From assembly GCA_022483015.1 (NCBI GenBank), contig JAKVOB010000001.1, positions 1,760,902 through 1,824,901 of the forward strand: a DNA stretch of 64,000 bases. Direction: 5' to 3'. A model generated the notes under the pieces. That model was not told the DNA's origin. It did not search any database and was given only the letters and a program-made list of their open reading frames with translations. Shown piece by piece: positions 1,368 through 42,711 of this stretch (within the stretch, counting starts at the first letter, position 1; each line of letters begins with the position of its first letter). The DNA comes from Atopobiaceae bacterium. GTDB lineage: Bacteria > Actinomycetota > Coriobacteriia > Coriobacteriales > Atopobiaceae. Made by a program: the position numbers and the translations under genes.

Positions 1368-1442
1368 TGACTCCTGGTAGAAAACGACACCCGTATGAGT
1401 TTCGACAACTGTACATCAATGGGCAAGGGAGCATGCAACGCG

Positions 1443-3614
1443 ATGGAACGTCTTTTCAGAAACGTCCTCAAGCACAGGAAGATCGTCGTCGCCGTCTTCG
1501 TGGCGCTCACATGCATCTGCGCCTTCCTCATCCCGCAGGTAGGGATCGACGCCGACATGAGCGACTACCTGCCGCCCTCGGCAAAGTCCTCGCAGGACCT
1601 CGATGCCATGAAGGAGGTCTACGGCAACGACATCACCAACGGACGTGTCTACGTGACAGGCATCTCGCAGGTCGATGCCGCGGACTTCGTCGACCAACTC
1701 AAGGGTCAGGGCGACGTGATCTCGGTGACCTGGCTGGGCGACGAGGTCGACCTGACGGAGCCGCTCGCCGTGCAGGACCAGGACACCATCGACGAGTGGT
1801 ATGACGGCAAGGGATACCTCTTCCAGCTGGTGCTCTCGGACACCGTGGACCAGACCGAGATCGACAACATCCGCAGCATGGCCAAGGCGATACCCGGTGC
1901 CGAGACCGTGGCCATAGACGGCTCGGCGGCATCGACCGCCTCCTCCATGGCCTCCATCAACACGGACATGGTCAGGATCATGATCATCGCCGTCATCACG
2001 GTCTTCCTTATCGTCATGCTCTCGACCACGAGCTACCTGCACCCAGTGGTGATGCTGCTCACCATCGGCGTCGCCATCTGCCTCAACATGGGCACCAACA
2101 TATTCAGAGGCACCATCTCTTCGATCACCGAGCTCGTGGCGAGCGTGCTGCAGCTGGCCGTGTCGATGGACTACTCAATCGTGCTGCTCACCAACTTCGG
2201 GCAGGCACGCGAGAAGTACGACGACCAGTTCGAGGCCATGGTGCACGCCATGGTGAAATCCTTCCCGGTCATCCTCTCCTCTGCTGCCGTCACGTTCTTC
2301 GGCTTCCTCTCGCTTGCGGCAATGCAGTTCCTCATCGGCCAGGACATGGGCATCGCCCTCGCCAAGGGCATCGTGTGCTCGTTCTTCTCGATCACCCTGC
2401 TCATGCCCTGCATCCTCTATGGAATGAGGAACGTGGTCGAGAGAACCACGCACAAGCCGTTCATCAAGTCGTTCAAGCGGTTCGCGCGGGGTTGCACCAA
2501 GGGAGCGGTGCCCGCCTTCGCCATCGCCTGCCTCATCGCCGTGCCGGCCCTCCTTGCCTCACAGTCCGTGAACTTCAGCTACGGGCAGTCGGCCAACCTC
2601 TCGTCGACAGACCAGGTGACGACCGACAGCGCACTCATCACCGACGCCTTCGGCGAGTCGCAGACATGGGCGATCATGGTGCCAGAGGGGCAATGGGCCA
2701 ACGAGGAGGCCCTCGTGGCCGACCTCAAGGCCCTTCCCACCACGAAATCGGTGCTCTCGTACACCACCGTGGCCGGCACGAGCCTGCCCCACGAGCTTGC
2801 GAGCGAGGACGAGGTCTCCCAGCTCATCAATGGCGGATACAGCCGCATCGTCCTCACGAGCAACATCACCGAGGAGGGATCGGGGTCCTTCGACCTGGTC
2901 GAGCAGGTTCGCAACATGCTCAGCAGCTATTACGGTGACGACTGGCACCTTGCCGGCAACACCGTGAGCTACTACGACATCCGCTCGGTCACCTCGAGCG
3001 ACCAGACCACCGTCAAGATCGTCTCGGTGGCTGCCATCAGCATCGTGCTGCTCATCATGTTCAAGTCGTTCTCGATCCCGCTCACGATGATCCTCGCCAT
3101 CGAGGTCTCCATCTGGATCAACGAGGCGGTGCCCTACTTCATGGGAGACACGGTCAACTTCGTCGCCTTCCTGGTGATCGACGCCGTGCAGCTCGGCGCG
3201 GCCGTGGACTACTCGATCATCTATACCGAGGAGTACCTGCGCAGACGAAAGCTCATGCCAAAGGATCAGGCAGCCATCCAGTCCATCGGGGCCACGGCGC
3301 AGCCCATCATCACCTCGAGCTCCATCCTGATACTTGCGTGCCTGGGCATCTACGTCGCCGTCTCCTCGCCGATGATCCAGCAGGTCGGCCTGCTCATCGC
3401 CCGTGGCGCGCTCATCTCGGTGATCCTCATCTTCCTGGTGATGCCGCTCACCTTCAAGATCTTCGACGGCTTCATCCGGCGCACGAGCCTCCACGTGGAC
3501 TTCTATGACGAGAAGGGTGGAACCGGAAAGGACGGGACCACGTCCGTCCCGACCCTCACGCCGCCCGCCTGCGCCACCTCAGACCAGTCAACAAACTCGA
3601 ACGACGAGGAGTAA
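1443..3614 (+). CDS. MMPL/RND-family membrane transporter
   Basis: This integral membrane exporter has the duplicated MMPL layout: an N-terminal membrane helix (residues about 12-32), a large extracellular domain, five to six helices, then a second extracellular domain and a second helix bundle. The RND-type proton-relay helix is visible as SMDYSIVLLTNF in the first half and AVDYSIIYTEEY in the second. The start at 1443 (MERLFRNVLKHRK) has AAGGGAG 11 bases upstream; an in-frame ATG at 1395 would add 16 residues but lacks a ribosome site. MMPL proteins export lipids, siderophores or drugs using proton motive force; substrate unknown. The stop is followed after 2 bp by the start codon of a secreted heptad-repeat protein, so the two are co-expressed. 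Confidence 0.88.
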   Translation: MERLFRNVLKHRKIVVAVFVALTCICAFLIPQVGIDADMSDYLPPSAKSSQDLDAMKEVYGNDITNGRVYVTGISQVDAADFVDQLKGQGDVISVTWLGDEVDLTEPLAVQDQDTIDEWYDGKGYLFQLVLSDTVDQTEIDNIRSMAKAIPGAETVAIDGSAASTASSMASINTDMVRIMIIAVITVFLIVMLSTTSYLHPVVMLLTIGVAICLNMGTNIFRGTISSITELVASVLQLAVSMDYSIVLLTNFGQAREKYDDQFEAMVHAMVKSFPVILSSAAVTFFGFLSLAAMQFLIGQDMGIALAKGIVCSFFSITLLMPCILYGMRNVVERTTHKPFIKSFKRFARGCTKGAVPAFAIACLIAVPALLASQSVNFSYGQSANLSSTDQVTTDSALITDAFGESQTWAIMVPEGQWANEEALVADLKALPTTKSVLSYTTVAGTSLPHELASEDEVSQLINGGYSRIVLTSNITEEGSGSFDLVEQVRNMLSSYYGDDWHLAGNTVSYYDIRSVTSSDQTTVKIVSVAAISIVLLIMFKSFSIPLTMILAIEVSIWINEAVPYFMGDTVNFVAFLVIDAVQLGAAVDYSIIYTEEYLRRRKLMPKDQAAIQSIGATAQPIITSSSILILACLGIYVAVSSPMIQQVGLLIARGALISVILIFLVMPLTFKIFDGFIRRTSLHVDFYDEKGGTGKDGTTSVPTLTPPACATSDQSTNSNDEE

Positions 3615-3616
3615 CG

Positions 3617-6436
3617 ATGCATACGAACAGGAATCGCAAGCAGGCCAACGAGACAGCCACACCGCAGCCGTCCGTCCTCGGGAGGAAGCTCCTCGCCTGC
3701 GCGGTGAGCTCGATCCTCGTGATCTCGACGCCGCTCGAGGGGGGCGTAGCCTATGCCGAGGACTCGGACACGAGCACGACCGGTGACGCCAGCACGGCCA
3801 GCGGGTCGAACTCGACCACGAGCGCGACCAAGGACGAGATCGTCTACGCCAAGGCCAACGCGAGCGGACAGAATCAAGGCATCTACGTCGTCAACTACTT
3901 CAACACGACCGACGCAGAGGATGTCGCCGACCCCGGCACCTATACCAAGCTGACCAACCTCTCGACCACGCAGGGCCTCACCGAGACGAACGGCTCCGTG
4001 GATCTGACCACCCTGGCCAACGAGCCCTTCTACTACCAGGGCGACCTCGACTCATCGACCACGTTGCCCTGGACCATCCAGCTCACATACACGCTCGATG
4101 GGCAGGTCGTGTCACCCGATGACCTCGCAGGCAAGGACGGCGACCTCGACATCGACCTCAAGATCACGCCGCTCGACGACAGCTCGTCCACGTCCGACTT
4201 CGCCAACAGCTTCATGCTGCAGGCGCAGGGCACCTTCGCCAACGCCAACTTCGACATCACCGACTCGACAGATGCCACGGCGACGGTCGTGGGCGACAAC
4301 ACGCTCCTCACCTACCTCGTGCTCCCCGGCGAGGGTGGCGAGTACCACATCAAGGGCAAGGCGAGTGACTTCACCTACTCCGGCTGGCAGATCAGCGCCA
4401 TGCCCATCACCCTGAACGTGGACCTGAGCACCTACGACACCTCGGAGCTCACCGACCAGGTCTCGACCCTCACGGACGGCGTGGACCAGCTGGCCGACGG
4501 CGGCAACTCGCTCACGAGCGGCCTCGACACGCTGAACTCCGGAGCTGCGAGCGCGGCCTCCGGGTCGAACACGCTGGCCAGCGGGACCAGCAGCCTCGCG
4601 AGCGGAGCAAGCACGCTGGCAAGCGGTGCGAGCACGCTGGCCGCAGCCACGGATACGCTCAGCAGCGGCAGCACGCAGCTGGCCAACGGAGCTAGCACGC
4701 TCTCGTCCGGCGCCAACTCACTTGCCACGGGCACGTCCTCGCTCTCGACGGGCGCGACTCAGCTCGCAAGTGGCACCTCCTCGCTCTCGACAGGTGCCAC
4801 CAGCGTGTCGAATGGGGCAGCGAAGCTCAAGGCTGCCCTCACCGTCGACGGCAAGGGCAGCAGCACGACCACGTTCTATGACGGCATGGACAATCTCACC
4901 GACGGGGCTGACCAGGTCAGCGACGGAGTGGACACTTTGGTGACGGAGCTCACGGCCATCTCGAACGAGATGACGGCCCTCGAGAGGCAGGCAGATAAAG
5001 ACGGCACCCAGCTGAGCACGGACGCCCAGAAGACCAGCAAAGACGCTGAGGATCTCTCCGATGCGATGACGAAGGCATCGTCCGCCATCACCAATGCCGA
5101 GACAGCCTTGTCAGGCGAGAAGTCCGCGCTCGAGACGGCAGGCACCGCGCTCTCCGCGGACGAGTCCTCGCTGACCTCGGCTGGCACCGACCTCACGAGC
5201 ACGGCGAGCGCGGCCTCCACGGCGGGATCAGACCTCTCGACGGCAGGCAAGGACTGCACGGCAGCGGGGACAGCCCTTGAGGGCATCGACACGACCGGCA
5301 TGAGCGCCGCGCAGATTGATGCCGTTCAAAAGGCGGCAGCGGCCGTGAAGACGGCAGGGTCTGCCACCAGCACCGCCGGGACCAGCGTCACGAACGTCGG
5401 CACGAAGGCAGGCACTGCCGGCACGGCAGTACAGGACGCAGGTGCTGATGCCAAGACGGCAGGCGAAGACGTCACCGCGGCGGCAGCCACGCTCCAGACC
5501 ACGAGCGATGCGCTCACGTCACTCAGCAGCCTGAGCAGTGGGCTGAGTACGCTCGGCACCGACCTCTCAAACGTCCAAACCGACCTCGATTCCGACCATA
5601 TCGGCGGTATCCCCTCAAAGTCGAAGTCAATCATCAAGGAGTCCAGCGACCTGCTTAGCAGCATGCAGTCGACTATCGACACCCTCACGGGCAAGACCAC
5701 CCAGGACCAGCTCGCCGCCCTCAAGAAGGGCTCCGCAGAAGTCGCGACCGGATCCGCCAAGTTGAAGGCCGAGCTCGAAGAGAATGGCGAAATCTATGAA
5801 GGTCTGTCCTCCCTAGCCAGCGGCGCCAGCAGCGTAGCCACAGGTGCCTCCTCGGTGAACAGCGGCGCAGCCTCCGTCGCCAGTGGCGCCAAGTCCGTGA
5901 ACACGGGCGCGACCTCGGTCAAGACCGGTGCGGCCTCGCTGGCAAGCGCCTGCTTCACGGCCAGCACCGGCGTGGCTCAGCTCAGCACCGGCGCCTACAC
6001 GCTTTCCTCCGGTGCCTCGACGCTCAGCAGCGGCGCCTCGCAGGTAGACTCCGGTGCCTCGACCCTCTCCGACGGCCTCGACACCCTCGCGTCCGGCACG
6101 AACTCCGCTCTCAGCGGCTCGACCGAGCTCTCTGACGGCCTCGACACCCTGCAGAGCTCCGTCGACGGCCTCGACCAGACCGTCCTCGACAAGGCCCAGG
6201 ACTACATCGACCAGAAGCTCGGCAAGGACTACCAGCTCCACTCCTTCGTCGACGCCTCCAACACCAACGTCAACGAGGTCGAGTTCGTCTACGTGGTCGA
6301 TGGCGTGACCGCTGACGACTCCTCCACGGACGACACCGCCACGACGACCACCGACGACACCACCGACACCTCGAACCAGAGCATCGTCGACCGCTTCCTC
6401 GCCCTCTTCACCGGGGACTCAAGCAAGCAGGACTAG
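3617..6436 (+). CDS. Secreted heptad-repeat (XXXLXXG) protein, partner of the MMPL exporter
   Basis: A 939-residue protein with a basic N-terminus and hydrophobic signal segment ending near AYAED (about residue 45), a globular domain (about 60-280), then two long blocks rich in heptads such as ASGASTL and SSGASQV (about 290-400 and 725-860). These match the X-X-X-Leu-X-X-Gly repeat family often encoded with YhgE/Pip-type and MMPL membrane proteins. Between the blocks is a Ser/Thr/Ala-rich helical stretch. The C-terminus is Asp/Thr-rich with no LPxTG motif or membrane helix, so it is probably secreted or held by the exporter. It begins 2 bp after the MMPL stop, implying translational coupling. 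Exact function is unknown; an extracellular rod linked to transport is likely. Confidence 0.8.
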   Translation: MHTNRNRKQANETATPQPSVLGRKLLACAVSSILVISTPLEGGVAYAEDSDTSTTGDASTASGSNSTTSATKDEIVYAKANASGQNQGIYVVNYFNTTDAEDVADPGTYTKLTNLSTTQGLTETNGSVDLTTLANEPFYYQGDLDSSTTLPWTIQLTYTLDGQVVSPDDLAGKDGDLDIDLKITPLDDSSSTSDFANSFMLQAQGTFANANFDITDSTDATATVVGDNTLLTYLVLPGEGGEYHIKGKASDFTYSGWQISAMPITLNVDLSTYDTSELTDQVSTLTDGVDQLADGGNSLTSGLDTLNSGAASAASGSNTLASGTSSLASGASTLASGASTLAAATDTLSSGSTQLANGASTLSSGANSLATGTSSLSTGATQLASGTSSLSTGATSVSNGAAKLKAALTVDGKGSSTTTFYDGMDNLTDGADQVSDGVDTLVTELTAISNEMTALERQADKDGTQLSTDAQKTSKDAEDLSDAMTKASSAITNAETALSGEKSALETAGTALSADESSLTSAGTDLTSTASAASTAGSDLSTAGKDCTAAGTALEGIDTTGMSAAQIDAVQKAAAAVKTAGSATSTAGTSVTNVGTKAGTAGTAVQDAGADAKTAGEDVTAAAATLQTTSDALTSLSSLSSGLSTLGTDLSNVQTDLDSDHIGGIPSKSKSIIKESSDLLSSMQSTIDTLTGKTTQDQLAALKKGSAEVATGSAKLKAELEENGEIYEGLSSLASGASSVATGASSVNSGAASVASGAKSVNTGATSVKTGAASLASACFTASTGVAQLSTGAYTLSSGASTLSSGASQVDSGASTLSDGLDTLASGTNSALSGSTELSDGLDTLQSSVDGLDQTVLDKAQDYIDQKLGKDYQLHSFVDASNTNVNEVEFVYVVDGVTADDSSTDDTATTTTDDTTDTSNQSIVDRFLALFTGDSSKQD

Positions 6437-6460
6437 TTCTTCTCGCCAGGAAGCGTTCAC

Positions 6461-6497
6461 GGGAGGGCCCCGCACATACGTGATGCGGGGCCCTCCC
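6461..6497 (+). terminator. Strong hairpin after the MMPL operon
   Basis: GGGAGGGCCCCGCA (6461-6474) pairs perfectly with 6484-6497 across a 9-nt loop, 25 bp after the stop codon. No U-tract follows, so it may end transcription with Rho or protect the 3' end. Confidence 0.7.
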
Positions 6498-6545
6498 GCG
6501 CTCTCGAGTACCGACGCAACGCTGTGCCAGCGAGCAACGCACATT

Positions 6546-6688
6546 CGTTCGATTCCGCGCGTGCCAAGGGAAGCTGAAAAGAGCCATCATGCTTCTGACC
6601 TGCAGCGACGTGGCACATCTTCTGATTGGCCCCGCGCGTTCGGTCGATTCCGCGCAGGAACCCGCTGAAACCGGCGCGGAATCGAACG
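6546..6688. repeat. Intergenic repeat element, copy A
   Basis: Contains the 15-mer CGTTCGATTCCGCGC at 6546-6560, a near copy at 6641-6655, and its inverse GCGCGGAATCGAACG at 6674-6688. The last two can pair as a 13-bp stem. The same order and spacing recur at 7959-8103, with scattered matches between the 15-mers. The rest of the 440-bp gap (6437-6876) shows only the terminator and no reading frame I can support. It resembles REP/BIME-type palindromic elements; a T-arm-like string (GTTCGATTCC) is noted but no tRNA folds. Confidence 0.75.
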
Positions 6689-6876
6689 AACGTGTATACG
6701 GAAGCGAGCCGCACCAAGATGCCGCTCGCCGATGGAGCACGCGACGCGCCAGGCAGCACATCCTCGACCACTCGCACGCGTCGCCACAGCTCCCATGCGT
6801 AACGAACCCCAAGAGTCCCCGTGCCATATGCCGACACCACGCCCGTCGCCCCGGATGCACCTGGTAGCCTTGGGCC

Positions 6877-7929
6877 ATGACGATGCTCTTCGGATACCAG
6901 ACCGCCCTCGAACTCTGGCGTCGACCCGAGGTCTATACGCATGCGAGCTTCTCGCAGACGATGACGCTCGAAGTCCCCAGTGAGGGACGCGCGACACCGT
7001 GGACGGTAGAGGGTACGGCCACCACCCTCTGGTCCGACACGCTCATGGACCTTGCCAGGCCGTGGGACCTCGTCTCCTCGACCTACGGCCATCACTTGTC
7101 AAAAGAGGGAATCCACTGGCACGCACGCACCACGGCGCTTCCCCCACACTCTGGGCTCCGCCTTGAGGGAGACGTCTTCCTCGTCTCACCCGAGCTCTGC
7201 CTCCTCCAGATGGCAGAGACGCTGCCGTTCCTGGAACTTATACAGCTCATGGACGAGTTCTGCGGGACTTACCGTCCCGAGGGCGATGGCCTCGAGTGCC
7301 GCCCAGCGCTCACATCGACGGCGCTCGTCTCCAGCTACCTCGACTCCTCGGAAGGTGTGAATGGCGTCAAGGCGGCCCGCCGGGCGCTTCGTCATGCCGT
7401 CGACGGCTCCGCCTCGCCCAAGGAGACGCAGGCCGAGCTGCTCTTCTCGCTGCCGGTGACGAGGGGAGGCAAGGGATTTCCCAAGCCCCAGATGAACCAG
7501 CGATTCGATGTACCGTCCGACCTCCGGCAGGCTGGCGATCCCGGCTACCTCGAGTGCGACCTCTGCTGGGAGTCGAAGGATGCCGAACTAGCGGCAGGTC
7601 AGCCCCACCATGCCGCCGTCGAGTACCAGTCGACCAGATGGCATGTGGGCGCCAAGAAGCTCGCGGCCGACTCGCGGCGGCGGAACCTCCTCGAGAGCAT
7701 GGGAGTCCACGTGATCACGCTCACGGCCGCAGAGCTCTTCTCGGCGAAGGGGTTCGACAGAGTCGCCACGTTGATAGCCAATGAAATCGGAGCCCGGGTA
7801 CGGACTCGCCTAAGCCCTGATGAGGTCACAAGGCGTACGAGCGAGCTCAGGGAGTCCCTGCTAGGAAAGGGCGACATCAGCGCTGACGGGGCACCCGACG
7901 AGAGTGACCTCCCGCCCGACCAGAGGTAA
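6877..7929 (+). CDS. DUF559/Vsr-like putative nuclease-fold protein
   Basis: A 350-residue protein with no signal or membrane helix. The middle (about 100-130) has SPELCLLQMAETLPFLELIQ, like the AbiEi-type domain often fused to DUF559 in actinobacteria. The C-terminal half carries a PD-(D/E)XK-like pattern: ECDLCWESKD, then AVEYQSTRWHVGAKKLAAD, then RRNLLESMGVHVITLT, matching the D...ExQ...H...D..R..L..G..V layout of DUF559/very-short-patch-repair-like endonucleases. Whether it cuts DNA is unknown. It stands alone between two copies of the same intergenic repeat and has no clear ribosome site before the ATG at 6877, so leaderless translation or a start at residue 3 is possible. Confidence 0.65.
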   Translation: MTMLFGYQTALELWRRPEVYTHASFSQTMTLEVPSEGRATPWTVEGTATTLWSDTLMDLARPWDLVSSTYGHHLSKEGIHWHARTTALPPHSGLRLEGDVFLVSPELCLLQMAETLPFLELIQLMDEFCGTYRPEGDGLECRPALTSTALVSSYLDSSEGVNGVKAARRALRHAVDGSASPKETQAELLFSLPVTRGGKGFPKPQMNQRFDVPSDLRQAGDPGYLECDLCWESKDAELAAGQPHHAAVEYQSTRWHVGAKKLAADSRRRNLLESMGVHVITLTAAELFSAKGFDRVATLIANEIGARVRTRLSPDEVTRRTSELRESLLGKGDISADGAPDESDLPPDQR

Positions 7930-7958
7930 GCAGACCGCCAACCGCAGAGGTACACGTT

Positions 7959-8103
7959 CGTTCGATTCCGCGCGTGCCAAGAGGAGGCCAAGAAGAACTA
8001 TCGTACTTCTCACCTGCGGCGATGCTGAGCTTGCTCCATAGTGCCCTTGCACGTTCGTTCGATTCCGCGCAGGAAACCACCGAAACCGGCGCGGAATCGA
8101 ACG
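7959..8103. repeat. Intergenic repeat element, copy B
   Basis: It has the same architecture and orientation as copy A: CGTTCGATTCCGCGC at 7959-7973 and 8056-8070, and the inverse at 8089-8103, which can form a 15-bp stem with the second. It begins 30 bp after the stop at 7929. The rest of the 411-bp gap up to the gltX start (8341) shows only a possible -10 box, TATACT at 8272-8277. Confidence 0.75.
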
Positions 8104-8340
8104 GCCGTGTGCGGCGAAAGCCACGAAAGCGGCTCCGCACAGGGTACCCCTACACTCCAAGACGAGCGGCTCTCCACGAAGCAGCGAGAAGCACATGCCG
8201 CCGCGACCGAATGGCCACATCCGCCCCGTCGTCGCCCGACGCAGGCCCCCGTCGTCCCGCACACGTTGGCTATACTGGTGGGCGCATATGAACCGACGCC
8301 CGACTGGCGCCATGTACCTCCACGACCCAAGGAGAGCCCC

Positions 8341-33081: not shown

Positions 33082-34440
33082 ATGAACGAGAACCACGCAA
33101 TCACACCCGACGACCTTGCGGCGGCACGCGCCGACTTCGCCGACGACCGTGCCAACGCCATCGCCAGGAATGCCGTGACGGCCCAGGGGCTGCGCGCCGT
33201 GAGCCGCGTGCCCGAGGCCGTGGGTGCCAACGCGCTCGGCTTCGACGTCGAGGTGCATCAGGGCGACCGCTGCGACCAGGAGCGCTCGGGCCGCTGTTGG
33301 ATGTTCGCGAGCCTGAACACCATGCGCTTCCGCGTCATCGACCGTCTCGGCCTCAAGACCTTCGAGCTCTCGCAGGCCTACCCCCTCTTCTGGGACAAGC
33401 TCGAGAAGTCCAACTGGTTCCTCGGCAACGCCATCGACACCGTGGACGAGCCGCTCGACGGACGTCTCGTCTCGTACCTGCTCGAGAGCCCCGTCGGAGA
33501 TGGCGGCCAGTGGGACATGTTCCGTGCGCTCGTCAAGAAGTACGGCGTGGTGCCCAAGGAGGCCATGCCCGAGTCGGCCTGCTCGAGGAACACCGCCGAC
33601 CTCGACCGTTACCTCACCCGCTACCTGCGCGGATGCGCGCGCAGGCTCCGCGAGGCACACGAGGCGGACGGGGATGACGCGGACCTGGAAGGCATGCGCC
33701 AGGAGATGATGGGTGACGTCTACCACCTGCTCGCGACCTGCCTGGGCGAGCCGCCCGAGTCCTTCTCGGTCCGCATTCGCGACAAGGACGGCAAGCTCGC
33801 CCTCACCGGCACCTACACGCCTCAGCGCTTCTTCGACGAGGTCGTCGACATGGACGTCGACGACTATGTGAGCCTCATCTCGGCCCCCACGTCGGACAAG
33901 CCCTTCGGCCACACCTACACCGTGGACCGCCTGGGCAACGTCGTCGAGGCTGGCGGCGTACGTTATCTCAACCTCGAGGTCGCGAAGCTCAAGCGCGCGG
34001 CCATCGCCCAGCTCCAGAGCGGTCTGCCCGTCTGGTTCGGCTGCGACGTCTCGCAGAGCTACCTCAAGGACGAGGGCATCATGGACACGGCGGCACTCGA
34101 CGTGGACGGGCTCATGGGCTTCCCCGTGGAGGGCTGCCTCACCCGCGCGGAGCGCCTCGACTACGGCGAGTCAGCGATGACGCACGCCATGGTGCTCGAG
34201 GGCGTGGACCTCGACGAGGCAGGCGAGCCGACCCTCTGGAAGGTCGAGAACAGCTGGGGCAAGGACCACGGTCGCAACGGGTTCGACACGCTCTCGGATG
34301 CCTGGTTCGACGAGTACGTCTACCAGGTCGTGGTGGACCGCAGGTTCCTCACTGACGACGAGCGCCGCACCTACGATACCGAGGAGCCTCGCGTCCTCGC
34401 GCCCTGGGACCCCATGGGCTCGCTCGCCGGGCTCCGTTAG
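33082..34440 (+). CDS. pepC: Aminopeptidase C, C1B peptidase (bleomycin hydrolase family), copy 1
   Basis: A 452-residue papain-fold aminopeptidase that trims N-terminal residues from peptides in the cytoplasm. The catalytic Cys72 lies in RSGRCWMFASLN, the His in AMTHAMVLEGVD and the Asn in KVENSWGKDHGRNG, in family order. PACSRN-like and MGDVYHLLATCLGEPPE segments match PepC. The ATG at 33082 follows GAGGAGC. A second, diverged copy begins 10 bp after its stop, so the two form a bicistronic tandem duplication. Confidence 0.93.
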   Translation: MNENHAITPDDLAAARADFADDRANAIARNAVTAQGLRAVSRVPEAVGANALGFDVEVHQGDRCDQERSGRCWMFASLNTMRFRVIDRLGLKTFELSQAYPLFWDKLEKSNWFLGNAIDTVDEPLDGRLVSYLLESPVGDGGQWDMFRALVKKYGVVPKEAMPESACSRNTADLDRYLTRYLRGCARRLREAHEADGDDADLEGMRQEMMGDVYHLLATCLGEPPESFSVRIRDKDGKLALTGTYTPQRFFDEVVDMDVDDYVSLISAPTSDKPFGHTYTVDRLGNVVEAGGVRYLNLEVAKLKRAAIAQLQSGLPVWFGCDVSQSYLKDEGIMDTAALDVDGLMGFPVEGCLTRAERLDYGESAMTHAMVLEGVDLDEAGEPTLWKVENSWGKDHGRNGFDTLSDAWFDEYVYQVVVDRRFLTDDERRTYDTEEPRVLAPWDPMGSLAGLR

Positions 34441-34450
34441 GAGGCGGGCC

Positions 34451-35908
34451 ATGGATACCTCGACCGACCGGCAGGGCGCCCTCGGCACCGCCTGGGCGCA
34501 CCAGCTCGACGCGTCGTTTGCCGACGAGCGTGCCAACCGAGTCGCCCGCAATGCCGTGACCTCCATGGACGTCGCCGCGGCGGCGCGCGACCCACGTGTC
34601 CTGCGCTCGTATCACGACACCTACGGGGTCTCGCTCAAGACCGCCTCGACCGTCACCAACCAGCGCCAGTCGGGCCGGTGCTGGATGTTCGCGACGCTCA
34701 ACGTGGCCCGCGCAGCCGCCATGAGGAGGCTCGACGTCGAGGACCTCGAGTTCTCGCAGGCCTACGGCATGTTCTATGACAAGCTCGAGAAGGCCAACTC
34801 GTTCCTGGCGAACGTGATCGACACGGCGGGCCTTCCCGCCGACGACCGCACGGTGTCGCTCATCATGGACGAGCCTGCCCCCGATGGCGGCCTCTTCCGC
34901 TTCGCGGCCAACCTCATCGCCAAGTGGGGCTTGGTCCCCAAGGACGTCATGCCCGAGACCGCCTGCTCCAGGAACTCCCGCGAGATGAACCTCCAGCTGG
35001 ACCGTCTGCTCAGGCGCGACGCCGCAGACCTGCGCAGCAAGGCCGCAGACGGTGCCAGCACAGACGAGCTCGACGCCGCGCGCCGGTCGATGATGGGCGA
35101 CGTGCACCGGATGCTCTGCATCTGCCTGGGGGAGCCGCCCGTGACGTTTGACCTCGAATGTGCGGTCGGCCCCCATGCCGACGTGCCCGAGGGGCTCGTC
35201 ACGGACATACTGCCCGCGCCGGACGCCGACGACAAGGACGCGAAGCCTCGCCACGTGCTTCGCGATGCCGGGATCACGCCCCGACAGTACCGCGAGCGCT
35301 ACGTGGGCTTCGACCCGGACGACTACGTGGTCCTCGTCTCGGTGCCCGGCCAGGACCGTCCCTTCGGCCACGCCTTCGGCATCCGCTATGAGGACACGGT
35401 CGTGGGAGGTGCGCCGCTCCGCATGCTCAACCAACCCATGGACGTCCTCGAGGGAGCGGCCGTGGCCTCGCTCGAGGCAGGAGTTCCCTGTTACATGGCC
35501 TGCGATGTTGGCAAGAACCTGGGACGTTCCCTCGAGGACTACCCGGGGACGCTCGCCTTGGACGGCATGGACCTCGAGGGCCTCTTCGGGGTGCCCCTCG
35601 ACATGGAGAAGGCCACGATGTACGACCTCCACGAGAGCTGCATGACCCACGCCATGACCTTCCAGGGCGTCGAGCTTGCCTCCGACGGGAGGCCCCATGC
35701 CTGGCGCGTCGAGAACAGCTGGGGCAAGGACTCCTGCAAGGACGGCTACCTCGTGATGGCCGCCGACTGGTACCGCCTCTATGGCGGAGGTGTCGTCGTG
35801 GAGCGCAGGTTCGTCCCCGATGACGTCCTCGAGGCCTGGGACAAGGCACCACTCGAGCTCCAGGACCCCTGGAGCGTGCTGGCGCTCGCCATGGGACTGC
35901 GCTCGTAA
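34451..35908 (+). CDS. pepC: Aminopeptidase C, C1B peptidase, copy 2
   Basis: A 485-residue paralog of the preceding gene with Cys77 in QSGRCWMFATLN, His in CMTHAMTFQGVE and Asn in RVENSWGKDSCKDGY. It is longer mainly in the middle (about 225-280). Both keep all catalytic residues, so both should be active. Two copies in tandem suggest different peptide preferences or hexamer subunits. GGAGG sits before the ATG at 34451. It ends 3 bp from the stop of the convergent membrane protein gene. Confidence 0.93.
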   Translation: MDTSTDRQGALGTAWAHQLDASFADERANRVARNAVTSMDVAAAARDPRVLRSYHDTYGVSLKTASTVTNQRQSGRCWMFATLNVARAAAMRRLDVEDLEFSQAYGMFYDKLEKANSFLANVIDTAGLPADDRTVSLIMDEPAPDGGLFRFAANLIAKWGLVPKDVMPETACSRNSREMNLQLDRLLRRDAADLRSKAADGASTDELDAARRSMMGDVHRMLCICLGEPPVTFDLECAVGPHADVPEGLVTDILPAPDADDKDAKPRHVLRDAGITPRQYRERYVGFDPDDYVVLVSVPGQDRPFGHAFGIRYEDTVVGGAPLRMLNQPMDVLEGAAVASLEAGVPCYMACDVGKNLGRSLEDYPGTLALDGMDLEGLFGVPLDMEKATMYDLHESCMTHAMTFQGVELASDGRPHAWRVENSWGKDSCKDGYLVMAADWYRLYGGGVVVERRFVPDDVLEAWDKAPLELQDPWSVLALAMGLRS

Positions 35909-39453: not shown

Positions 39454-39972
39454 TTAGCTACGCGAGACCCTGATGATGCGGTCGCCCGCGCGCACGGTGC
39501 CCTCGGCGCAGGGCTCCACCGAGGCAAGCTCGGCCGTGTTCGATATCACGCAGATCACGACGTCGTCATGACCCGCGGCCTTGATCTTGTCGCGATCGAA
39601 GGTGACGAGCGCCACACCCGCCACCACATGGTCGTCCTTCTCGACCAGGCGCTTGAAGCCGTCGCCCTGCATGTCGACCGTGTCCACGCCGATGTGGATG
39701 AGCACCTCGACGCCCTCGTCGCTGGTGAGGCCGATGGCATGGTTGGTGGCCGTGGTCGCCGTGATGGTACCGGACACCGGCGCGTAGCAGATGTCCCCAT
39801 CAGGCTTGATGCCCAGGCCCTGCCCCAGGATGCCGCCCGAGAAGACCGGGTCGGACACCTCGGCGAGCGGGACCACCTGACCACCCACCGGGGCAGCGGC
39901 CTCCCCGCCGGCCACGTGCACGGTGATCGGGTCAGGCTCGGGTGCCTTCTTGAACTTGTCGAACAGGCCCAT
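39454..39972 (-). CDS. PTS glucose-family EIIA protein, copy 1
   Basis: A 172-residue soluble phosphocarrier that passes phosphate from HPr to an EIIB domain. The active-site histidine region VEVLIHIGVDTVDMQG and the partner motif NHAIGL are present, as is the FSGGILGQGLGIKP loop of the Crr/EIIA-Glc family. Neighbours are a 6-phospho-beta-glucosidase upstream and yigZ downstream on the same strand. No EIIB or EIIC is attached, so it probably serves EIIBC transporters that lack EIIA, such as the one at 61355. Confidence 0.92.
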   Translation of the reverse strand: MGLFDKFKKAPEPDPITVHVAGGEAAAPVGGQVVPLAEVSDPVFSGGILGQGLGIKPDGDICYAPVSGTITATTATNHAIGLTSDEGVEVLIHIGVDTVDMQGDGFKRLVEKDDHVVAGVALVTFDRDKIKAAGHDDVVICVISNTAELASVEPCAEGTVRAGDRIIRVSRS

Positions 39973-40001
39973 GGCAGGGCTCCTCTCGTCGGTGGCATCG
40001 C

Positions 40002-40034
40002 GATGCCCTGCCCGACGGTACCAGGCAGGGCATC
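40002..40034 (-). terminator. Hairpin between the 6-phospho-beta-glucosidase and EIIA genes
   Basis: GATGCCCTGCC (40002-40012) pairs with GGCAGGGCATC (40024-40034), an 11-bp stem with an 11-nt loop. No U-run follows on the minus strand, so partial termination or mRNA processing is possible. Confidence 0.5.
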
Positions 40035-40099
40035 GGAGGTACAGGGGACACGATAGCCCACTGTCGTTTCTGCCAGGTCAACAAAGGCAGAAGGCGAGG

Positions 40100-41572
<1,473 letters not shown>

Positions 41573-41673
41573 TCATGACCATCGGATATCTGGGATACTA
41601 CCCAAGTAGGGACAAGAATGGATGAGGCATCCATAAGCGGCAGGATGGATGCAGGATATCGGGAGGAACCCAC

Positions 41674-42087
41674 ATGGCCACCACATCACAGTCGAAGACG
41701 TTCCACACACTCGGGATACTCGGCATCATCTTTGGCATCATCATGGCCGCCATAGCTCTGCTGGTCATCGTCACCGAGATAGGCATCGACCTTGGGGACA
41801 CCGACCTCGAGAAGGGCACCGTCCTCATCAAGATGACCACGATGGGCGTGAACGGCGTGCTCTTGGTCCCGCTGGGAATCCTCGCCGTCCGCAGGATGAC
41901 CAGGACCTGCAGGACCTTCTCGATCATCCTCATGGTGGTCGCGGGCATAGGGGTCGTCATCGCGATCCTCGCGGTCCTCGCCAGCATGGGCAACTTCAGC
42001 TCCGTGCTCACGGCCGTGGTGGACCTGGTCATCCCCTATCTCTTCTTCGACCAGTGCAACAAGGTCCTCGCCGAGAAGGACGAGTAG
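41674..42087 (+). CDS. Small four-helix membrane protein, unknown function
   Basis: A 137-residue protein with four predicted membrane helices (about 12-35, 52-70, 80-103 and 107-125) and short charged termini. I recognise no family motif. It lies on the opposite strand to its neighbours, between the 6-phospho-beta-glucosidase and the second EIIA gene, and is closed by a strong hairpin. GGGAGG sits about 8 bases before the ATG at 41674. Confidence 0.7.
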   Translation: MATTSQSKTFHTLGILGIIFGIIMAAIALLVIVTEIGIDLGDTDLEKGTVLIKMTTMGVNGVLLVPLGILAVRRMTRTCRTFSIILMVVAGIGVVIAILAVLASMGNFSSVLTAVVDLVIPYLFFDQCNKVLAEKDE

Positions 42088-42112
42088 GCCACGGGAGGTT
42101 CGCAGAGCCAAG

Positions 42113-42149
42113 ACGGCGCCCACGGCAGCGGACCTGCCGTGGGCGCCGT
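42113..42149. terminator. Hairpin between the small membrane protein and EIIA copy 2
   Basis: A perfect 16-bp GC-rich stem (42113-42128 with 42134-42149) has a 5-nt loop and lies between convergent stops. It is likely bidirectional and has no long U-tract. Confidence 0.75.
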
Positions 42150-42192
42150 TGTCTCGAGAAGGGGGCGACGATGGCCCGCTCTCGGTCACGAG

Positions 42193-42711
42193 CTACTTGC
42201 GAGTGACCTTTATTGCCACCTCGCCTGCCTTGACGGGACCCGCCGCACGGGGGTCCACCGAGGCGAACTCAGGCGTGTTCGAGATGACACAGATCACGAT
42301 GTCATCATGGCCGGCCGCCTTGATCTTCTCGCGGTCGAAGGTGATGAGGGGCGTGCCGGCATCCACATGCTCATCGGTCTCGACCATGCGCCTGAAACCG
42401 TCGCCCTTCATATCGACCGTGTCGACGCCGATGTGGATGAGGACCTCGATGCCATCGTCAGTGGTGAGGCCGATGGCATGGTTCGTGCCCGTGGTGGCAG
42501 TGATGGTACCGCTCACCGGTGCGTAGCAGACGCCGTCCTCAGGCCAGATGCCGAGGCCCTGACCGAGGATGCCTCCCGAGAACACGGGATCGGGTACCTC
42601 CGCGAGCCCGACGGCACGACCGCTCGCTGGAGCAGCCGCCTCGTCAGCAGCGATGTGGACCACGACGGGATCGGGCGTCGATTCCTTCTTGAACCTATCG
42701 AATAGACCCAT
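42193..42711 (-). CDS. PTS glucose-family EIIA protein, copy 2
   Basis: A 172-residue paralog of the EIIA at 39454, the same length and about three-quarters identical by eye. It keeps NHAIGL and IEVLIHIGVDTVDMKG, so it should be phosphorylated at the same His. The two copies stand 2.2 kb apart on the same strand. GAGGAG lies 8 bases before the ATG at 42711. It is downstream of the DUF1097 gene with a 90-bp gap. Confidence 0.92.
   Translation of the reverse strand: MGLFDRFKKESTPDPVVVHIAADEAAAPASGRAVGLAEVPDPVFSGGILGQGLGIWPEDGVCYAPVSGTITATTGTNHAIGLTTDDGIEVLIHIGVDTVDMKGDGFRRMVETDEHVDAGTPLITFDREKIKAAGHDDIVICVISNTPEFASVDPRAAGPVKAGEVAIKVTRK

Follow-up and report, generated by a model that had tools for sequence, protein, structure and literature searches.

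Nuclease gene and flanking elements in the window

The window is a stretch of 64,000 nucleotides (positions 1760902-1824901) from the genome of an Atopobiaceae bacterium that is assembled as a single contig of 2,276,002 bases (2.28 Mb). It contains a gene for a putative nuclease with one repeat element on each side, E1 upstream and E2 downstream. The coordinates of the gene, its predicted domains, and the elements are shown in Table 1. Paired repeats around a nuclease gene had been noticed in an earlier sequence-only reading and are confirmed here. The elements are somewhat longer than the 144 bp or so given in that reading once the 21-nt boxes, which the bounds in Table 1 take in, are counted. 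Two direct copies and one inverted copy of a 15-mer are found in each element as had been claimed, with exact matches at 6546 (+), 6674 (-), 7959 (+), 8056 (+), and 8089 (-) and one mismatch in the second direct copy of E1 (6641). The claimed spacing and orientation also hold. The start-to-start distances are 95 and 33 in E1 and 97 and 33 in E2, and both elements lie in the same orientation, one on each flank of the open reading frame. E1 and E2 are 79% identical over 158 alignment columns, and each retains all boxes and the core.

The neighbours of the nuclease gene encode a 939-aa protein without Pfam match and Glu-tRNA synthetase. The 939-aa protein (3617-6436) has long SGASTLASGAS-type repeats, and its gene adjoins an MMPL transporter gene (1395-3614). 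Right behind this upstream gene (6460-6498) is a perfect inverted repeat, 15 bp long with a 9-nt loop, that is probably its terminator. Two duplicated pairs, up to 300 nt at 81%, are also present in the window (33136-35731 and 39482-42520), and by eye the former resembles tandem cysteine peptidase genes.

Table 1. Positions of the nuclease gene, its predicted domains, and the flanking elements in the window.
Feature	Position	Strand	Basis or remark
Nuclease gene, 350 aa	6877..7929	+	ORF, family searches, structure model
Predicted AbiEi-like domain, residues 1-172	6877..7392	+	6y8q Z 7.6; 1zel Z 5.1
Predicted Vsr/EDxHD-type nuclease domain, residues 178-306	7408..7794	+	Conservation, profile, structure match
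Element E1, upstream copy	6540..6694	+	Direct boxes A and B with the core between them; inverted box C
E1 box A (CACATTCGTTCGATTCCGCGC)	6540..6560	+	Repeat-family detection
E1 core ACCTGCAGC	6598..6606	+	Window sequence and core motif
E1 box B	6635..6655	+	Differs from E2 box by two mismatches
E1 box C, inverted	6674..6694	-	Repeat search
Element E2, downstream copy	7953..8109	+	Plan as in E1
E2 box A	7953..7973	+	Repeat search
E2 core ACCTGCGGC	8012..8020	+	Window sequence and core motif
E2 box B	8050..8070	+	Repeat search
E2 box C, inverted	8089..8109	-	Repeat search

Element family and gene copies in the same genome

The 13-mer TTCGATTCCGCGC has 11 copies genome-wide compared to none for the reversed pattern. 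Two of these copies (659573 and 1111137) are isolated singles. The other nine are located inside E1, E2, and two solo elements (441010-441168 and 1909131-1909304), and a fifth, diverged element is found at 1063675-1063820. The box plan of E1 and E2 is thus found five times, twice flanking the gene and three times solo, and the 13-mer count indicates a dispersed five-member family far above chance with two members beside the gene. The genome-wide search that had been proposed for the 15-mer recovers a dispersed family, and not a repeat scattered without link to the gene family, which had been named in advance as a refuting outcome.

The search of this genome with the window protein gave six matches. 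Besides the protein itself, these are one paralogue at 57% identity, two more at 36-40%, and a locus whose gene is divided between two open reading frames. Three of the four other loci have flanking direct repeats that are unrelated to the window elements: 119 nt and 100% identical (L051), about 101 nt at 85% (L052), and, around the broken gene of L054, about 195 nt at 95%. No repeat between the flanks was found at L053. The two-ORF copy, which retains its 95% identical flanking repeats (L054, 626158-626843), is a decaying member of the family. Since most paralogues in this genome have different elements, the question was widened from the single locus to the gene family.

Predicted fold of the nuclease

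The fold predicted for the protein is an AbiEi-like domain followed by a Vsr/EDxHD homing-endonuclease fold. Twelve residues (P105, E106, Q111, S180, P181, E183, G197, G198, N207, D228, E249, and Y250) are invariant in 60 family members, and H256 and D265 are conserved in at least 90% of them. These include E, D, H, and D-type residues of the kind expected in an active site, from which we infer the EDxHD motif residue by residue. Pfam identified MTES_1575 in 28 of the 60 members and DUF559 in 14. For the window protein itself, Pfam gave no significant match, so that the earlier description of the gene as DUF559-like holds for the family and not for this protein. Only MTES_1575, DUF559, and DUF2726 were found in the 60 members at E <= 0.01, with no Y1/HUH transposase among them.

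The best PDB match of the family profile is 3r3p (E 2.7e-4). The predicted model (pLDDT 86.5) also has 3r3p (I-Bth0305I) as its best structural match, with Z 10.0 and rmsd 2.7 over 96 aligned residues. Among nucleases, Vsr (Z 7.4) and TnsA (Z 6.2) follow, and some chains of large complexes rank in between. Foldseek returned nothing at E <= 0.001 against PDB or viral models, and the structural assignment is based on the profile match and the second structural alignment.

Residues 1-172 alone match AbiEi (6y8q) with Z 7.6 and rmsd 3.7 over 118 aligned residues, the best of 74 chains, and Rv2827c (1zel) with Z 5.1. As the model is a prediction and Z is below 8, these comparisons are no more than suggestive of an AbiEi-type identity for the N-terminal domain. 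The matched part of 6y8q is confined to residues 67-192. The N-terminal winged helix of 6y8q presumably lies outside this range, and it therefore seems to be missing here. The most divergent stretch between close pairs of family proteins is approximately residues 28-87, which is a weak signal for specificity.

Gene family and its flanking elements

The gene family is multicopy and is found chiefly in Coriobacteriia. It is present in 45 of the 60 genomes searched, often with many copies in each. Similarity of at least 40 bits between the upstream and downstream flanks was found for 34 of 66 gene copies compared to 3 of 161 mock positions (65 loci), where two of the three control matches are duplicated window genes. 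In the replicate set, flank repeats were found in 14 of 57 copies compared to 4 of 89 controls, which is weaker than in the first set. The replicate set comprised 80 named loci, from which seven duplicates and the loci with short flanks were dropped; its taxa are Coriobacteriia or below, except for a few bins (Actinomycetes, Propionibacteriaceae, and no class).

Inverted-repeat elements were defined by 14-mer arms with at most one mismatch that are 40-170 nt apart, and they were searched around 123 non-redundant gene copies with full flanks. They are found on 110 of 246 sides compared to 13 of 406 ends of neighbour genes. The second control, gene ends within the window, gave 1 of 80. The elements are present upstream in 61 copies and downstream in 49. 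At least one element is found at 82 of the 123 copies, with elements on both sides in 28. The remaining 41 have none in either flank by this test. Relatives with the gene and without the elements, which had been named in advance as evidence against a link, thus exist for part of the family.

The duplicated cassette in G022 (L101 and L317, with shared elements and proteins 91% identical) was considered as a transposition event and rejected, since 92% homology extends through about 5.3 kb of flank. L101 and L317 (contigs C14 and C12) represent a single region, more than 5 kb long, in two versions that are 92% identical, perhaps from a strain mixture.

Architecture of the elements

The motif search of 114 element interiors identified the core AAAAcCgCWGGTcg in which C-W-G is almost invariant. 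The log-likelihood of this motif is 165.3 compared to 54.4-70.5 for eight dinucleotide shuffles. Good core matches are present in only 61 of the 114 interiors, some of which are from the same gene as both the upstream and downstream copies were included. The core lies within 6 nt of the midpoint of the inverted boxes in 45 of these 61 matches (10.3 expected) and at most 1 nt from it in 26, over element lengths of 80-198 bp. The common plan, as read from these sequences, is one of gene-specific inverted boxes around a conserved core at the midpoint. The window elements deviate from it as their core is centred on the direct pair A and B and not on the inverted pair A and C. In both E1 (centre 6601) and E2 (centre 8015), the distance of the CTG centre is 3.5 nt to the A-B midpoint and 16 nt to the A-C midpoint.

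Some loci exhibit box arrays with a period of about 31 bp. The table of these arrays is descriptive; its controlled counterpart is the inverted-repeat test of the 123 copies. The arrays of L137 and L140 are mirror-symmetric about a single centre. L126 has direct box copies only, 13 on one side and 6 on the other. The orientation of the core relative to the gene is near random, with 21 minus and 20 plus upstream and 20 minus and 13 plus downstream, and on this ground a reading of the core as a promoter or 5'-leader was rejected.

Covariation between the arms was assessed for 22 aligned element copies with 500 shuffles. The arm pairs that had changed on both sides number 8 compared to 7.5 in the shuffles, a value reached by 250 of 500. 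The pair types were reached by 228 of 500. The paired cells, the cells changed on both sides, and the covariation score were each reached by 15-20 of 500 shuffles; the score was reached by 15, a level not unusual among related sequences that lack structure. The arms thus vary independently in the 22 copies, and this variation fits two independent, putative binding sites better than a stem, although it is still compatible with folding.

Private families, solo copies, and turnover

Fifteen elements from 11 genomes were searched as one joined query against 12 genomes. The search gave 227 matches. Among the matches listed, each element falls in the genome that holds its gene, and this private pattern holds even for G036 and G004, which belong to the same genus. 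The genome without an element in the query (G025) gave no match. Element sequences are unlike even between genes that are 55% identical. At the syntenic loci L052 and L092 of sister species, the proteins are 50% identical and the flanking genes about 80-84%, and the arms are different.

More than 20 sites of the L089 family are present in Paraeggerthella hongkongensis strain RC2/2 A (G053), and 20 of them were retrieved. The solo copies are 165-172 bp between the inner marks with inverted arms of about 50 nt, and the central core is found in either orientation, with SCWGS at most 7 nt from the midpoint in 16 of 20. Their spacers form subfamilies, a sequence pattern that suggests copying. The outer ends of these solos (L251-L270) are AAAACCGC...GCGGTTTT, and the elements could act as two-way transcription terminators for the adjacent genes.

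The flanks of 13 of the 20 solo sites were queried in the other Paraeggerthella strain (G060). Both flanks are present for two sites (L259 and L268) and the element is missing from both; one flank or a fragment is present for three (L251, L257, and L260), and nothing was found for the other eight. The empty site of L259 has 15 bp in place of 264 bp and also differs in about 40 bp of flank. L258 and L242 have common flanks with the element in both. The gene at L090 and L241 is 89% identical across the Paraeggerthella strains; its downstream spacer is not alignable, and a box and the core are retained. No obvious target-site duplication was seen at the 20 solo copies or at the empty site of L259. 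An open reading frame that is RAYT-like by eye (YHVTARG, NHIHLL) with its own inverted repeats adjoining is located at L273 (859-1500, G060), at the site of the G053 solo L260, which places a REP system and a nuclease system in one neighbourhood.

The sister genome G001 was considered as an empty site of the whole unit for the window locus and rejected because the interval is rearranged and the junction is not clean. The two neighbours of the window gene are about 5 kb apart there, and all five family genes are elsewhere. The dnaX site was likewise rejected without a clean junction. Paraeggerthella gene loci gave no clean empty site at the gene level because the draft contigs break at the elements.

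Comparison with known systems

Among the closest known systems are REPtrons, which combine REP/REPIN repeats with a RAYT (TnpA-REP) gene. As here, the gene is flanked by its own repeats, cognate copies are dispersed in the genome, and repeat identity varies between genes, even syntenic ones such as L052 and L092. Orthologous RAYTs with different REPs are described in PMC3686654. However, the REPtron enzyme is of the HUH/Y1 type, whereas the proteins here have no HUH/Y1 domain and have a predicted Vsr-like nuclease fold. REPs are short GTAG-tagged hairpins, whereas the elements here measure 80-200 bp, their boxes lie far apart with a CWG core at the centre, and their arm covariation does not favour a hairpin. 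The system would thus work like a REPtron and yet is not one since the HUH enzyme is absent.

The EDxHD homing endonuclease I-Bth0305I, together with Vsr, is the best profile and structural match to the family. According to PMC3943268, I-Bth0305I forms a dimer on a target that is exceptionally long, at nearly 60 bp, and this recalls a long two-sided site. Unlike homing genes, no intron or intein was seen at the locus, the gene does not interrupt its target, both gene-adjacent target copies are complete, the targets are multicopy, and the N-terminal domain is AbiEi-like. The latter domain, as predicted, resembles AbiEi antitoxins of type IV toxin-antitoxin systems, which together with the AbiEi-DUF559 proteins of Actinomycetota form another close known system, but no AbiEii toxin partner was found by Pfam among the neighbours of the window gene.

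Pairing of genes and repeats may be wider than Coriobacteriia, with other element shapes. The DUF559 survey of the phylum covered 30 loci, of which one has no open reading frame and one (L310) is a family member. Among the other 28, flanking repeats scored 40 bits or more at five loci, and an inverted-repeat element is present at three. L298, a DUF559 locus outside Coriobacteriia, has a 54-bp near-perfect-palindrome repeat on both sides (699-752 and 1731-1784). Inverted tandem arrays are present at L303 (550-785 and 1751-1989), another such locus.

Proposed explanation and alternatives

A private family of 80-200-bp elements, with gene-specific boxes around a common core, often borders the nuclease gene and dots its genome. 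The explanation that we prefer, with a probability of roughly 0.55, is a REPtron-like selfish system that is built on a restriction-fold nuclease in place of an HUH transposase. The protomers would bind the boxes as double-stranded DNA, and the S-C-W-G-G core would be nicked or cut by the two nuclease domains as they come together at the midpoint. The break would be repaired from another copy, by which the elements would spread, sometimes as the whole element-gene-element unit. If the two flanking elements recombined, the gene would be lost and a solo element would remain. Several observations count against this explanation. E1 and E2 are both complete, so that the gene leaves its target intact, unlike a classical homing gene. 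Inverted-repeat elements were found at neither side of 41 of the 123 copies, the replicate set is weaker, no clean target-site duplication was found, the core of the window elements is off the general plan, and good core matches are limited to 61 of 114 interiors. Three readings had been offered from the sequence alone. The best fit is the REP-like family that spreads in connection with the gene product: the private element families are found, and the spread is what we infer from them. The small mobile cassette is possible; the search for a clean insertion of gene and elements as one unit found none.

The main rival, which we consider unlikely, is a domesticated regulator or chromosome organiser. 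The AbiEi-like protein would bind the boxes, repress its own gene, and also act at the dispersed sites, be it as an operator, an insulator, or a bidirectional terminator, with the nuclease fold only aiding binding. AbiEi relatives are autoregulating DNA-binding antitoxins, and the frequent placement of an element directly upstream of the gene, the phasing of the arrays (consistent with cooperative binding), and the terminator-like ends of the G053 elements are in line with such a role. However, the nuclease residues are invariant or nearly so across the 60 proteins, downstream elements are almost as common as upstream ones, and the core orientation is near random. The solo subfamilies are also located at differing places, and some sites are empty in the sister strain.

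MITEs such as Correia elements are short, non-coding, and dispersed, with terminal inverted repeats and insertion polymorphism, and the elements here share all of these features. That MITE-like or composite-transposon elements are moved by an unrelated transposase with the nuclease gene as a passenger is nevertheless improbable. Each tested gene has its own family, confined to its genome among the matches listed, and a passenger would not track the element sequence. No obvious target-site duplication was seen, no transposase family was found in the 60 family proteins, and the tie is to a private nuclease gene.

We give equally little weight to a self-marking defence nuclease, for which the elements would be protected or decoy sites and the enzyme would cut invading DNA. 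The restriction-like fold and the arms-race-like difference of elements between genes 55% identical agree with defence, but PADLOC gave no match, Pfam found no partner methyltransferase adjoining the window gene, and the sites are enriched and not avoided in the genome of the gene. The weakest reading, and an improbable one, is the pair of structured RNAs (or single-stranded hairpins) as the functional form, for which the arms are long and 91.9% of arm cells are able to pair, but which is not supported given the independent arm changes, the near-random core orientation, the direct-only array of L126, and an Rfam search with nothing at gathering score and two subthreshold matches.

Implications of the proposed selfish DNA in Actinomycetota

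The proposed selfish nuclease system leads to a broader proposal that we hold only tentatively. Actinomycetota chromosomes may carry selfish DNA of a distinct class in which a nuclease of the Vsr/EDxHD fold manufactures its own targets. Such a nuclease would recognise a private, dyad-symmetric site in double-stranded DNA through boxes that are tens of bp from the centre and cut a CWG core, and repair would seed up to dozens of sites. Specificity would switch fast, which would leave neighbouring paralogues and syntenic genes with unrelated sites, and the system would be a separately evolved, restriction-fold counterpart of RAYT/REP. The pairing departs from REPtrons and from homing genes, its two nearest kinds, in a feature that defines each, although its strategy resembles that of REP/RAYT. 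No DUF559, MTES_1575, or Vsr-like nuclease paired with private repeats was found in searches of open-licence papers.

If this proposal is true, dedicated repeat families of a single gene are not peculiar to HUH transposases, and another enzyme class, unrelated to them, has come to this strategy as well. Many unexplained intergenic repeats in Coriobacteriia would be accounted for, and some of the large DUF559/MTES_1575 pool would gain a function. The proposal would also provide a natural series of nucleases with long and diverse recognition sites, where the target can be read from the flanks of the gene itself, and such nucleases would be useful for the study of how DNA specificity changes.
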